Origin: Paenibacillus borealis
Lineage (GTDB): Bacteria; Bacillota; Bacilli; Paenibacillales; Paenibacillaceae
NCBI RefSeq assembly: GCF_000758665.1
Contig: NZ_CP009285.1
Coordinates: 1,178,001 to 1,242,000, forward strand
DNA length: 64,000 nucleotides
Reading direction: 5' to 3'
Shown here: positions 47,942-54,288 of the stretch, in pieces
Position numbering within the stretch: position 1 is the first letter of the stretch
Layout of the letters: every line of letters begins with the position of its first letter
Notes under the pieces: model-generated
Databases searched by the model: none
Told to the model about the DNA's origin: nothing
Seen by the model: the letters and a program-made list of their open reading frames with translations, nothing else
Made by a program: the position numbers and the translations under genes

Positions 47942-48547
47942 TTAGTCCTCTTCACCGCTGGAGCCGTTCAGCACATCGGTTCCGGGCATTGCGTCAGGGT
48001 CCGGGGAGACCGGGTCAATTGCGCTGCCGGGATCAAGCTCGTCGGCATCCGGGATATCCTCCAGCGGAAGCTCCTCATCCTCCTCCAGCAGCTCCTCATC
48101 CTCCGCATAATCAATAACATCGCCGGTCAGGCCTGCCGCGCCGGCGGCGTACAGTGCATCCGATTCCAGCAGCTCGTCCCGTTCCGGTGCAGGGGTCCCT
48201 GCCGAAGGGAGGCTCCGGTCCGCCCGCGGGCCAAGCCCGGAATCCGGCACATTCAGCCCGATGTCGGCAGCCAGAATATTATCGCCAACCAGTGCCGGAT
48301 CGGAACCGTCATCCACTACACCGTCGAAGTCTATAGGTGTGAAGTTAGCGGGATCATGACTGGCCAGAGCGGATTCCAGCGGCCGGTTCCCGGCAGTGTC
48401 CACTTCATCGCCCGGACTTTGTTCGGTAATCGTGCCAAGCGGACGTAATTCTTCCAGCGGAATATCCTGTTCCGGGGAAATGCCGCCCATTTTGGTATAA
48501 CGCTCATACACAAAGTCGGCTTCCGTTTTATTGAATTCATTGCCCAT
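47942..48547 (-). CDS. Highly acidic 201-aa hydrophilic protein
   Basis: ATG 48547 (minus strand) with GGGAG upstream. The protein starts MGNEFNKTEADFVYERY and is otherwise dominated by Asp, Glu, Pro and Gly with few hydrophobic residues, including runs such as EDEELLEEDEELPLED; it is probably disordered. No known domain. It follows a 59-aa acidic gene by 21 bp on the same strand, so the two form a small operon. This may be a sporulation or stress protein, but nothing in the sequence proves that. Confidence 0.75.
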   Translation of the reverse strand: MGNEFNKTEADFVYERYTKMGGISPEQDIPLEELRPLGTITEQSPGDEVDTAGNRPLESALASHDPANFTPIDFDGVVDDGSDPALVGDNILAADIGLNVPDSGLGPRADRSLPSAGTPAPERDELLESDALYAAGAAGLTGDVIDYAEDEELLEEDEELPLEDIPDADELDPGSAIDPVSPDPDAMPGTDVLNGSSGEED

Positions 48548-49079: not shown

Positions 49080-50978
49080 ATGAAGTTGCCTTCAACAAAA
49101 ACAGCAGCCGCACTGATTATGCTGCTGCTCGTGATTGCTATAATCCCGGTTGGCATTGCCATGGAATGGGGCGGGCATAAAGAAGTTGCCCTGCCGGTAT
49201 GGCAGCTTAAATGGGAACACACAGCTATACATGATATTCAGGAGGCCATGACTGCTCCTTCCGGGGAGTGGAGAACGGTAGAGGCGCGGGAGGACAGGCC
49301 GCAACCGCCTTCAGGTGCAGATTCAGCCTGGCTGCGGTTTTCTCTGCCGCGTACAGAGGCGAACTCGGCACTCCTGATCGACAAAGTATACGGCGACAGC
49401 CTGCAGGCATATATAGACAACCGGCTTATCTATGATTCCAATGACCTTATCCACTACAGCGGCAACAAGGTGCTAATCCCGCTATCCCGGGAGGACAGTG
49501 CCAAGCAGCTATATCTGTGGAGTACTGGCGGCGGCAGAGAGTTCGGCATAGAGGGAGAAGTCAGGGTCGGCAGCTATGATAAGCTGCTGTCCTTCTATGT
49601 GAAGCAGGATCTCGTGGATCTTGTCATTGGAGCGGCGCTGATATTTATGGGCGGAGCGCTGATGATCTGCCTGCTGTTTCTCAAACCGGAGTTTTTCTCG
49701 GGCGGTTTTTCCCTGATTCTGGTCATTATATCCTTTGGCGTGCTGCTTATTACTTATTCCCCGTTTCTGCGGCTGATTGTAAACAGCCAGGAACGTTTGA
49801 CGGGAATCTGCTTCGATCTGGCGCTTTTCACACTTCTGCCGGCGTTTACGATCTATTTCGAACAGTTATTCGGACCCGGCAAGCGTGGACTTACCACCCG
49901 GCTGCGCAATTTTCAGCTGGCGTACTCCTTGTTCTGCCTGGGTGCGCTTGTGCTGAATGCAGTGCTCGCTTTCCGGCTCGACTACCTGTACTCCTTCCTG
50001 ACCGTTGATGTGACAGGTGTGCTGATTATGGCGCAGTTTGTTTATTTGCTGTATTTATCGCTGTCTTATGCCCGCAGGGGCAATAAAGATGCTGTGATTT
50101 TCTCCATGGGGTTCTCTATATTTGCCTTCCTGTCCTTAAGTGAGCTGCTGATCTATTATTTCTCTTCAGAGAGGTATCATCTGTATTGGTGGAAATGGGG
50201 AATGGTTCTGTTCGTCATTTCCCTGATCGTTATTCTGGGAAGGCGGTTTGCGGGGAATCATGAGCAGGCTGTGGAATACTCCAGGGAACTGGAGAAATTC
50301 AATAATGAACTGCAGCGTTCGGAGAAAATGGAGATTATCAGTGAACTCGCTGCCTCGGTTGCCCATGAGGTACGGAATCCTCTGCAGGTAACCCGCGGTT
50401 TCCTGCAGATTCTGGGGGAGCGCTCGGGCAAGAAGGAGAAGGAATATCTGCAGATGGCCATGGAAGAGCTGGACAGGGCCTCGGTTATCATTACCGATTT
50501 TTTAACTTTCGCCAAACCTGGTATGGACACGGTAGATGTATTTGAAGTCTCCGGAGAGCTGAAGCATGTGTCAGGCATTCTGGTGCCCCTCGCCAATCTG
50601 CAGGGTGGAGCCATTGAACTGCATCTGCAGGAGGATCTCCAAGTATCGGGCAGCCCGGCCAAATTCAAGCAGGCGTTCATTAACCTGATCAAGAACAGCA
50701 TTGAATCATTACAGGAGGACGGCCTGATCGTAGTGACCGCCTGGAAGACAGGCAGACATGTGGTCATCAGTGTGCAGGATAACGGCGAAGGCATGAAGGT
50801 CAGTGAGCTGGCCCGGCTGGGGGAGCCGTATTATTCCAATAAGACGAAGGGCACGGGGCTTGGACTCATGGTTACCTTCCGGATTATTGAAGCGATGAAC
50901 GGTTCTATAGAGTTTCAGAGCAGGAAGGGTGAGGGGACAGAGGTTATTGTTAAATTACCAGTCTCCGGTAATAATTAG
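49080..50978 (+). CDS. Orphan membrane histidine kinase with extracellular beta domain and seven-helix region (paralogue 1)
   Basis: ATG 49080 after GGGGTGCC. A signal/anchor helix (8-28) precedes an extracellular beta-sandwich-like domain (about 35-175; WLRFSLP, LQAYIDNRLIYDS), then seven membrane helices (about 180-400) as in 7TMR-DISM receptors. The kinase part has an H-box VAHEVRNPLQVTRGFLQ near residue 428 and a HATPase domain with N box NLIKNSIESL, G1 DNGEGM and GTGLGL. No response regulator is adjacent. The H-box is of the type seen in Spo0A-phosphorelay kinases. It is clearly paralogous to the next gene. Confidence 0.92.
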   Translation: MKLPSTKTAAALIMLLLVIAIIPVGIAMEWGGHKEVALPVWQLKWEHTAIHDIQEAMTAPSGEWRTVEAREDRPQPPSGADSAWLRFSLPRTEANSALLIDKVYGDSLQAYIDNRLIYDSNDLIHYSGNKVLIPLSREDSAKQLYLWSTGGGREFGIEGEVRVGSYDKLLSFYVKQDLVDLVIGAALIFMGGALMICLLFLKPEFFSGGFSLILVIISFGVLLITYSPFLRLIVNSQERLTGICFDLALFTLLPAFTIYFEQLFGPGKRGLTTRLRNFQLAYSLFCLGALVLNAVLAFRLDYLYSFLTVDVTGVLIMAQFVYLLYLSLSYARRGNKDAVIFSMGFSIFAFLSLSELLIYYFSSERYHLYWWKWGMVLFVISLIVILGRRFAGNHEQAVEYSRELEKFNNELQRSEKMEIISELAASVAHEVRNPLQVTRGFLQILGERSGKKEKEYLQMAMEELDRASVIITDFLTFAKPGMDTVDVFEVSGELKHVSGILVPLANLQGGAIELHLQEDLQVSGSPAKFKQAFINLIKNSIESLQEDGLIVVTAWKTGRHVVISVQDNGEGMKVSELARLGEPYYSNKTKGTGLGLMVTFRIIEAMNGSIEFQSRKGEGTEVIVKLPVSGNN

Positions 50979-53025: not shown

Positions 53026-53265
53026 TTACCAGATGCCGAGCGCAGAGACGTTAGTCTTCATCATTCCGGAAGCCGGACTTGGAGGAATAACGAGATAGAA
53101 CTCATTGGAGCCTTCCTCTACTGTCTTCAATGTAATGTTATCAGGAAGGGTAATGCCGAGCACTTCTTTGAGGGCTTCTTTCGGATCTGTGAGTAGTCTC
53201 TGTTTGAAACTTGGATCTTCCCAGGCCTTCTGAATCACTTGATTCTTAAGAATTGCGTCTGACAA
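53026..53265 (-). CDS. NHLP-leader family RiPP-type precursor peptide ending in Trp
   Basis: The start is TTG at 53265 (minus strand) with AAAGGG 8 bp upstream; an in-frame ATG at 53313 has no ribosome site. The 79-aa product has the nitrile-hydratase-leader-peptide pattern: ILKNQVIQKAWEDPSFK, LLTDPKEALKEVLG, LPDNITLKTVEE, and FYLVIPPSP. A short C-terminal tail, ASGMMKTNVSALGIW, follows and would be the core. There is no Cys and only one Ser and one Thr after the leader, so it is not a lanthipeptide precursor of the usual kind. The C-terminal Trp is notable beside a prenyl-enzyme gene. Confidence 0.85.
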   Translation of the reverse strand: MSDAILKNQVIQKAWEDPSFKQRLLTDPKEALKEVLGITLPDNITLKTVEEGSNEFYLVIPPSPASGMMKTNVSALGIW

Positions 53266-53349
53266 TACAATCACCCTTTCGAATTGGTTATATTTTCCTG
53301 ATAAGCATAACATAGGCCAATCTATAATTCTATTGCTTTTTTATATATT

Positions 53350-54288
53350 TTATAAAATATTCATATTTTTGGTTAACCAATAATTGAGCCCTCCGCTTTG
53401 CAATAATTGCTTCTCCGCTTCGATTGCTGCGGCCATATGCTGCAGGTTCTTCACCAGTACCTGATGGAAGGATAACAAATGGGGAAGCTCCAGCGTGAAG
53501 GCTTCAAGTGTTCTGTGATTGGTCAGAGCTGTCCCTGCATACGAAGCTAGTCCGCCTGTTGTGAAAATAAAGTCCTTTACCGATGATTTACTGAGCGGTT
53601 CCCCATCATCACCCCCGTGGCAGCGTGCCAGAGACAGCAGGCAATTGTAATTCCCCTCCTCCAAATCCTGTTCCCAATCCTCATAGTCATCAAGCATTTG
53701 CAAAGTCAGCAGTACGTTATGTATCATCTCCTCTGCTTCGGTGATCAGGGAGGCTTGGTCTGACAGCAACAGTGCCGCAGTGCTGGTAAGCTTAAGCGGA
53801 CTGGCTTTATGGGAGATGCGGAGGCGGTCCCTAAGGAAGTAATCTCCGCTGGCTTCACCGCTTACACTGTCTGCCCACTCCGAGATGTAACGGCCAAAGT
53901 ATGACCAGAACGGGGAATCCGCCGGAAACAGCGGACGGTAAATATTCAGAAACTCGACATAGAGCAGATTGGCCAGCGGAAGTGCATGTGCAGCGGTGAG
54001 CTCATTACTGTCCATCAGATCATCCTGGAGGAAAAAGTAGAGCATAAAGAAGACGTTGCCGACCGACATATGACGGGTCAGGGGAATAGTCAGCCCGCAT
54101 TTGTCCTGCAGCCAGAAGGGGAGGAGATAACATATGTAATTTTTGTGGCTACCTGCCTTAAATACGTTAAACTGATCAAGATAGGACAGGCCTTGAGCAT
54201 TAAGCGGTTCGGGAAACGCTGAGATAATCGTACGGCTCTCCTGAAAAACCAGGCGGAGTTCGTCCTCGTAATCATGAAGCCAATCCAT
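53350..54288 (-). CDS. Class I isoprenoid synthase-like enzyme (ComQ-like or terpene-synthase-like)
   Basis: ATG 54288 (minus strand) is 7 bp after AGGAGA; the frame extends to a TTG at 54309. The 312-aa protein is all-helical, with a first Asp-rich motif FLQDDLMDSNE near residue 85 (DDxxD) and a second, LDDYEDWEQDLEEGNYN, near 215, the two metal-diphosphate-binding sites of class I isoprenoid enzymes. It lacks the chain-length motifs expected for housekeeping polyprenyl synthases. ComQ, which prenylates the Trp of ComX, has this fold and size. It lies 84 bp before the NHLP precursor in the same direction, so the precursor is the likely substrate. A terpene cyclase is the alternative. Confidence 0.8.
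   Translation of the reverse strand: MDWLHDYEDELRLVFQESRTIISAFPEPLNAQGLSYLDQFNVFKAGSHKNYICYLLPFWLQDKCGLTIPLTRHMSVGNVFFMLYFFLQDDLMDSNELTAAHALPLANLLYVEFLNIYRPLFPADSPFWSYFGRYISEWADSVSGEASGDYFLRDRLRISHKASPLKLTSTAALLLSDQASLITEAEEMIHNVLLTLQMLDDYEDWEQDLEEGNYNCLLSLARCHGGDDGEPLSKSSVKDFIFTTGGLASYAGTALTNHRTLEAFTLELPHLLSFHQVLVKNLQHMAAAIEAEKQLLQSGGLNYWLTKNMNIL

Follow-up and report, generated by a model that had tools for sequence, protein, structure and literature searches.

The palX-palQ pair of Paenibacillus borealis

The window, i.e. the 64,000-nucleotide stretch of the P. borealis genome (8.16 Mb, single contig) that was analysed, carries the genes of a small precursor peptide, PalX, and of an enzyme, PalQ, next to two histidine kinase genes, HK1 and HK2 (Table 1). 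palX and palQ are both located on the minus strand, palX 84 bp after palQ. The start codon of palQ is ATG at 54288, that of palX TTG at 53265, inside a minus-strand frame of 53026-53313 and preceded by an AAAGG-type ribosome site whose end lies 9 bases upstream. PalX was matched by TIGR03793 (NHLP leader RiPP precursor) with 67.3 bits, which is above the cut-off of 50.9 (E 7.8e-19), and by PF02979 with 44.5 bits; it occurs only once in its own genome, its C-terminal end reads ...PPSPASGMMKTNVSALGIW and a GG cleavage site was not seen in it. An earlier note on this DNA had described a 79-residue precursor with an NHLP leader and a C-terminal Trp, adjoining a same-strand enzyme with the motifs DDLMD and DDYEDWEQD (the latter being PalQ residues 200-208), and the present analysis confirmed this description.

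Table 1 Features of the pal locus, with positions in the window and the basis of each assignment
Feature	Position	Strand	Basis
HK1, tandem histidine kinase, 632 aa, first of pair	49080..50978	+	Pfam; kinase part similar to 3d36
HK2, palX-adjacent histidine kinase (PalP-type), 641 aa	51086..53011	+	Pfam kinase domains; model
palX, 79-aa NHLP-leader precursor, C-terminal Trp	53026..53265	-	TTG start; TIGR03793, PF02979
Predicted 8-residue core NVSALGIW	53029..53052	-	By comparison with P. alvei PalX, cut at T72|D73
palQ, 312-aa enzyme with trans-prenyl-synthase fold (modelled), putative Trp prenyltransferase	53350..54288	-	Model, Foldseek, invariant residues
First Asp-rich motif DDLMD, PalQ residues 89-93	54010..54024	-	Alignment; D89 and D93 named in PMC10853753
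Second Asp-rich motif DDYED, PalQ residues 200-204	53677..53691	-	Alignment; D200 and D204 named in PMC10853753
Sequence matching a Spo0A box, TGTCGAA	49018..49024	+	62 bp before the HK1 start; 0A-box core according to PMC3485338

A system of this kind has been published. Miyata, Ito and Fujinami (2023, PMC10853753) described in P. alvei a gene cluster that codes for PalQ, for PalX, an NHLP-type precursor whose last residue is Trp, and for PalP, a histidine kinase, and stated that the cluster is conserved across various Paenibacillus. According to the same paper, P. alvei PalQ accepts C5, C10 and C15 donors in vitro and transfers their prenyl groups to the C-terminal Trp, giving products shifted by +68, +136 and +204 Da; it is specific for a C-terminal Trp, failed when an Ala was added after the Trp, and its activity is improved by the NHLP domain (PMC10853753). 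A cut of PalX was reported at T72|D73, and D89, D93, Q197, D200 and D204 were named as functional residues of PalQ, of which Q197 contacts the indole in the published model (PMC10853753). The double mutant D200A/D204A was still active (PMC10853753) and, therefore, D200 and D204 need not be essential. In the accessible part of that paper PalP is named once, without a role, and PalX is not assigned a biological function.

The P. borealis locus resembles that of P. alvei in the NHLP precursor, the C-terminal Trp, the enzyme of the isoprenoid synthase superfamily and the neighbouring histidine kinase, and a comparison by the published residue numbers places D89, D93, Q197, D200 and D204 at identical numbers in both enzymes (PMC10853753). 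It differs in having two tandem kinases and in the core, which is DNVRRFFW in P. alvei and NVSALGIW, as predicted, in P. borealis (PMC10853753); the P. alvei core pattern was found in 0 of 394 genomes of the family. By its sequence, the P. borealis pair is thus a PalX/PalQ pair. The view of the earlier note that no system with this combination had been described is contradicted by the P. alvei genes (PMC10853753), and its chemical proposal, a prenylated Trp peptide made on an NHLP leader, is very likely right in the light of the in vitro prenylation reported for the P. alvei relatives (PMC10853753). Because of the orthology, as judged by leader class, C-terminal Trp, kinase neighbour and residue numbers, we predict that P. 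borealis PalQ almost certainly prenylates the C-terminal Trp of PalX.

PalQ of the P. borealis locus shares 94-97% identity with proteins of named Paenibacillus. The residues D89, D93, Q197, D200, D201 and D204 are invariant in PalQ of all 125 loci with a single palX and an adjacent kinase, the identity to the window enzyme going down to 26% in this set. The fold prediction that the earlier note had asked for gave an AlphaFold model with a pLDDT of 93.0 and a pTM of 0.89 (43-row alignment), and the modelled fold is that of trans-prenyl synthases: Foldseek returned 11 matches at E ≤0.001, with TM 0.61-0.68 over the query and 12-16% identity, all of them prenyl diphosphate synthases or complexes of these. 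At the sequence level PalQ had no match in NCBIfam up to E 1 and no clear match among PDB sequences, where one search found none and another a polyprenyl synthetase with a best E of 0.043; PF00348 was matched by 1 and DUF5685 by 4 of 32 PalQ relatives (E ≤0.01). One relative, P0021, is filed under the fungus Hortaea werneckii and probably stems from bacterial contamination of the assembly.

Distribution of the pair and variation of the precursor tail

PalQ was found in 326 of 394 genomes of the family (E ≤1e-10), nearly all of them with one match. A broader profile (E ≤1e-8) detected it in 272 of 392 genomes sampled within the order and in 37 of 398 sampled within the class, all 37 belonging to the order of the window. 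One in-frame TAA/TAG lies within the palQ match region of G054, G327, G335, G348, G366, G092, G297, G299 and G495; these copies are possibly broken, or the alignment runs past the stop, and G054 was without a stop in the broader-profile search.

From the PalQ matches, 140 loci of 139 genomes, including the window's own, were picked to cover genera and hence not at random. The earlier note had proposed to look for the same two genes elsewhere and had regarded enzymes without an NHLP gene nearby as evidence against its reading. A palX-like ORF was found within 9 kb of palQ in 137 of the 140 loci, always on the palQ strand and in 132 of the 137 directly after palQ (<400 bp), and only three loci (L159, L160 and L177) were without a detected palX; the pairing is, therefore, not due to chance. 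In L159 a kinase gene comes directly after palQ; neither palX nor a kinase is nearby in L160 and L177. Further, palX was searched for in 25 palQ-minus genomes, which are those named in the lists of the family and order searches and a subset of all genomes without a match. No full-length palX was present in them, two weak partial matches (G206 and G246) being all that was seen, and the same search detected palX in 5/5 palQ-plus control genomes. palX and palQ occur together and are absent together.

These data bear on the question of whether PalQ is a terpene synthase or a prenyl diphosphate synthase that acts on free substrates and has nothing to do with palX. The fold matches, being prenyl diphosphate synthases, would agree with such an activity, as would the database names of some relatives ("terpene synthase" or "class 1 isoprenoid biosynthesis enzyme"), but the P. 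alvei relative prenylates a peptide in vitro (PMC10853753), palX accompanies palQ in 137/140 loci and is found at full length without it in 0/25 genomes, and Q197, the indole contact in the published model (PMC10853753), is invariant in 125/125 enzymes. An enzyme of free substrates is, in our view, very improbable.

Loss of the Trp in related precursors had also been named in the earlier note as a finding that would speak against prenylation; a precursor without a Trp near its end was found in 0 of the 147 palX ORFs, and all 147 have it within the last seven residues. It is the last residue in 100 of them and is located one residue before the end in 24, two in 15, three in 2, four in 4 and six in 2. 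In a second protein set, which overlaps the first one partly and whose profile was built from Trp-bearing sequences, palX had 447 matches; the 120 listed all have a Trp among their final five residues and comprise 91 different last nonapeptides. Unlike what P. alvei PalQ requires in vitro (PMC10853753), the Trp is not the last residue in 47 of the 147 precursors. In genus g5 (L129-L132, L134, L139, L141 and L142) the tails read ...VNYDVNCGPWRT/S, with the Trp third from the end and, in addition, a Cys; judged from these tails, the specificity of PalQ in this genus may differ from that of P. alvei PalQ. Some loci have more than one precursor gene: L155 has a tandem array of five palX that differ in their tails, with one kinase adjoining it (relative positions 1022-2501 after the palQ start), and two palX in a row are present in L109, L113, L120 and L128.

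A T, A or S is found eight residues before the Trp in 48 of 54 tails of the window's group (L043-L096), as compared to 74 of 147 tails overall. Since the tails of this group are in keeping with the cut of P. alvei PalX at T72|D73, trimming of P. borealis PalX to the 8-mer NVSALGIW is predicted by analogy; outside the window's group the cut may be at a different position.

Histidine kinases next to palX

HK2 and palX are convergent, their stop codons being 14 bp apart. In the model of HK2 (mean pLDDT 71) a beta-sandwich (residues 35-165) is followed by seven long helices, HisKA and HATPase. HK1 and HK2 share 46% identity along most of their length. The Pfam family 7TMR-DISM_7TM matched HK1 weakly (E 4.6e-4, 20.6 bits, below the cut-off of 29) and was found in only 5 of 31 kinases (E ≤0.001). 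The other 35 matches of HK1 in the P. borealis genome start at residue 343 or later, except for a weak one (47 bits) that starts at residue 196 and, therefore, the HK1 sensor is without a close copy elsewhere in the genome.

A convergent kinase gene lies within 700 bp of palX in 132 of 137 loci, with a median gap of 43 bp, and 5 of the 137 have no kinase directly after palX. In the 86 loci outside the window's genus-type group, the kinase was found in 82, palX in 83 and palQ in 86, whereas the six other neighbours in the window were found in 0-16. The kinases are conserved about as well as the pair itself. Of the earlier note as a whole the chemistry is very likely right and the claim of novelty is not, and it had missed the two kinases, which point to the likeliest function. 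The arrangement varies: in L172 and L178 palX and kinase are doubled as successive units after one palQ, as if a single enzyme served two ligand-receptor pairs, and in L081-L085, L091 and L092 a kinase of the same family is located upstream of palQ, the gene order differing between groups. A 201-aa acidic ORF without a Pfam match (47942-48547, minus strand) has relatives in 40 of 54 genus-type loci and in 16 of 86 others, as counted in the stretches fetched.

The kinase part of HK1 has its closest relative among solved structures in Sporulation kinase B (3d36, 186 bits), i.e. KinB among the sporulation kinases KinA-KinE. HK1 did not match a named Kin equivalog, its score with NCBIfam KinD (157.8 bits) being far below the cut-off of 775. 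Among 194 kinases, the H-box LAASVAHEVRNPLQVTRGFLQL is nearly invariant and the phospho-His is present in 190. Conservation is highest around the H-box, where the commonest residue has a mean share of 0.91 (residues 401-440); this share is 0.54-0.79 elsewhere in the kinase and 0.30-0.60 in the sensor, which is variable. With a Spo0F fragment as query (E ≤1e-5), a receiver-domain ORF was detected within 1.5 kb of the kinase gene in only 2 of 136 loci, the proteins having 898 and 931 aa. A Spo0F that is 70% identical to that of B. subtilis is encoded in the P. borealis genome. Because of the KinB-like core, the conserved H-box, the orphan nature of the kinase genes and the presence of Spo0F, the output of the kinases is probably the Spo0F/Spo0A phosphorelay.

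Kinases of P. polymyxa were reportedly treated by Park et al. in 2012, as quoted in other papers. A B. subtilis kinA kinB mutant regained sporulation with Kin1377 of this species and, in part, with Kin1038, which perhaps acts on Spo0A directly (PMC6429003). KinA-KinE and these two kinases count among the known systems closest to the pal kinases.

Upstream of HK1 lies the heptamer TGTCGAA, which is the core of the 0A box (PMC3485338, PMC10134886). Among 101 dereplicated regions of 300 bp upstream of the first kinase gene, 62 contain it (83 of 136 without dereplication) and 39 lack it; no other 7-mer is as frequent in these regions. Of 300 permuted 7-mers, the best one reached 29 regions, with a mean of 3.0, and this best one overlaps the box. 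Before other ORFs of the same loci (>300 aa) the heptamer was present in 33 of 479 cases. Out of 66 sites, 58 have one orientation, and the distance to the ORF start is below 75 bp for 53. In tandem pairs (n = 47) the heptamer was found upstream of the first kinase gene 41 times and upstream of the second twice; in single-kinase loci it is present in 37 of 78 and missing in 41 of 78. The sequence before the first kinase gene is, therefore, a putative Spo0A site by which Spo0A~P could feed back on kinase expression. A Spo0A box upstream of palQ was also considered and dropped as too weak, the heptamer being only weakly enriched there (15 of 110). A sigma-H-like pattern was rare, with 0 of 140 palQ regions and 5 of 136 kinase regions, as compared to 1.2 in shuffles.

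Next to conservation, co-variation of peptide and receptor was analysed by partial Mantel tests, with the nine residues before the Trp taken as the tail and 108 of the 125 loci left after dereplication. With the kinase and PalQ distances removed, tail and kinase sensor were correlated with a partial r of 0.20 (p 0.001, 108 loci). When the leader was removed as well, r was 0.25 for the transmembrane part and -0.01, which is not significant, for the extracellular beta-sandwich. In 46 tandem loci the correlation of tail and sensor was 0.23 for the palX-adjacent kinase and 0.34 for the first kinase, and the sensor of the first kinase diverges faster (median 0.54 versus 0.34), the kinase parts diverging to a similar extent. 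The correlation between tail and sensor is modest. The kinase part itself showed a residual correlation with the tail (0.11, p 0.024; first tandem kinase 0.23, p 0.002) and, therefore, part of the co-variation is not ligand-specific; moreover, with related sequences the partial Mantel test is liberal, so that the co-variation is support and not proof.

If the kinases served PalX alone, they should be lost with it. This strict dependence was dropped, and the pheromone reading rated lower, since the kinase sensor is kept in 22 of 25 palQ-minus genomes (in two of them in part), as compared to 26 of 26 palQ-plus genomes; the kinase is, therefore, not strictly dependent on the pair and may have another signal. 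Neither palX nor palQ was present in four palQ-minus stretches that were fetched beyond the kinase, and the oxidoreductase that in the window comes after palQ directly follows the kinase in L213 and L215. Such kinases may respond to a second input, or they may belong to strains that have lost the signal and still listen. The retention of the kinase in 22/25 genomes, the clean lack of palX-palQ at the corresponding position of L213 and L215 and the modest size of the tail-sensor correlation are what one would expect of ordinary sporulation kinases with some other ligand, next to which palX-palQ merely happen to lie with an unrelated function. Against this stand the adjacency of palX and kinase in 132/137 loci while other neighbours turn over, their doubling as a unit in L172 and L178, and the fact that tail and sensor co-vary at all. 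We regard an unrelated ligand as rather unlikely and a link between the peptide, as a pheromone, and the kinases as reasonably probable.

Proposed function and export of the predicted prenyl peptide

The six genes flanking the locus code, by Pfam, for a ClC channel, an oxidoreductase, a GH20 protein, an AraC regulator, a HisKA_3 kinase and one protein without a match; neither an ABC transporter nor a protease is in this set, in line with the earlier note. P. borealis PalX has the leader class, TIGR03793, of NHLP RiPPs that are exported by NHLM/PCAT. This pathway involves a C39 peptidase and a GG cleavage site. P. borealis differs in both respects, the precursor being without a GG site and the genome without a C39 domain (0 matches to peptidase C39, with 8 of 14 control genomes positive). 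The lack of C39 makes the NHLM/PCAT route of export unlikely.

Antimicrobials are frequent products of RiPP clusters, and PalX could likewise give rise to an antimicrobial or surface-active lipopeptide, the kinases then sensing the peptide or membrane stress for the purpose of regulation or tolerance. We consider this unlikely: an ABC exporter is missing from the six neighbours scanned by Pfam, one PalQ match in nearly all of 326/394 genomes would be unusual for a bacteriocin, and the KinB-like core, the Spo0A-box sequence at the kinase gene and the lack of a cognate regulator alongside argue for a different role. In contrast, the recurrence of the gene set across the family and the Spo0A-motif sequence that usually precedes the first kinase gene suggest that the peptide likely serves as a signal between cells, which would feed into the decision to form spores.

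A signalling system of similar build is ComQXPA of Bacillus subtilis, with a prenyl-Trp peptide, a DDxxD enzyme of isoprenoid fold and an adjacent histidine kinase with a variable sensor. The P. borealis system differs in that the precursor is of the NHLP class with a C-terminal Trp, whereas ComQXPA has a ComX-type precursor with an internal Trp, and in that the pal kinases are HisKA-type and KinB-like, their genes are convergent and a ComA-type regulator does not adjoin. The details of ComQXPA used here are in part general background and otherwise come from PMC10853753 and PMC4008528. A census of 2014 records one Paenibacillus, P. curdlanolyticus YK9, with an unusual com-like locus (PMC4008528). 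By analogy, the pal system likely works like ComQXP with another class of precursor and another type of kinase, without belonging to ComQXPA.

In the model that we propose, PalQ would attach a prenyl group to the C-terminal Trp of PalX, as predicted, and the prenylated precursor would be trimmed to the 8-mer NVSALGIW and exported. The trimmed peptide would act outside the cell, where it could be bound by the putative 7TM sensor of HK1 or HK2; the kinases would then transfer phosphate to Spo0F and onward via Spo0B to Spo0A, and Spo0A~P might feed back on the expression of the kinases. On balance we lean towards this reading as a whole, i.e. a prenyl-Trp PalX pheromone that is sensed by the neighbouring, putatively 7TM-type kinases and feeds Spo0F-Spo0B-Spo0A. 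Among the listed titles and abstract beginnings, with subscription journals thinly covered, none connected PalX/PalQ with signalling through a kinase, with quorum sensing or with sporulation. What is new relative to the published chemistry are the conservation counts, the linkage to orphan kinases and the Spo0A-box sequence.

More tentatively, most Paenibacillaceae might possess an unrecognised prenyl-peptide quorum-sensing circuit that runs from PalQ-PalX, via an octapeptide-like pheromone perceived within the membrane, to 7TM sporulation kinases whose genes lie tail-to-tail with palX and from there to Spo0F/Spo0A, with feedback through the 0A box, and genomes that retain the kinase after losing palX-palQ would be listeners or cheaters. 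The predicted prenylated NVSALGIW and gene deletions make the pheromone reading directly testable. If it is true, prenyl-Trp signalling would exist with two different types of precursor and kinase, and spore formation would have a defined cell-density signal in a genus that comprises plant-growth promoters, dairy spoilers and bee pathogens.
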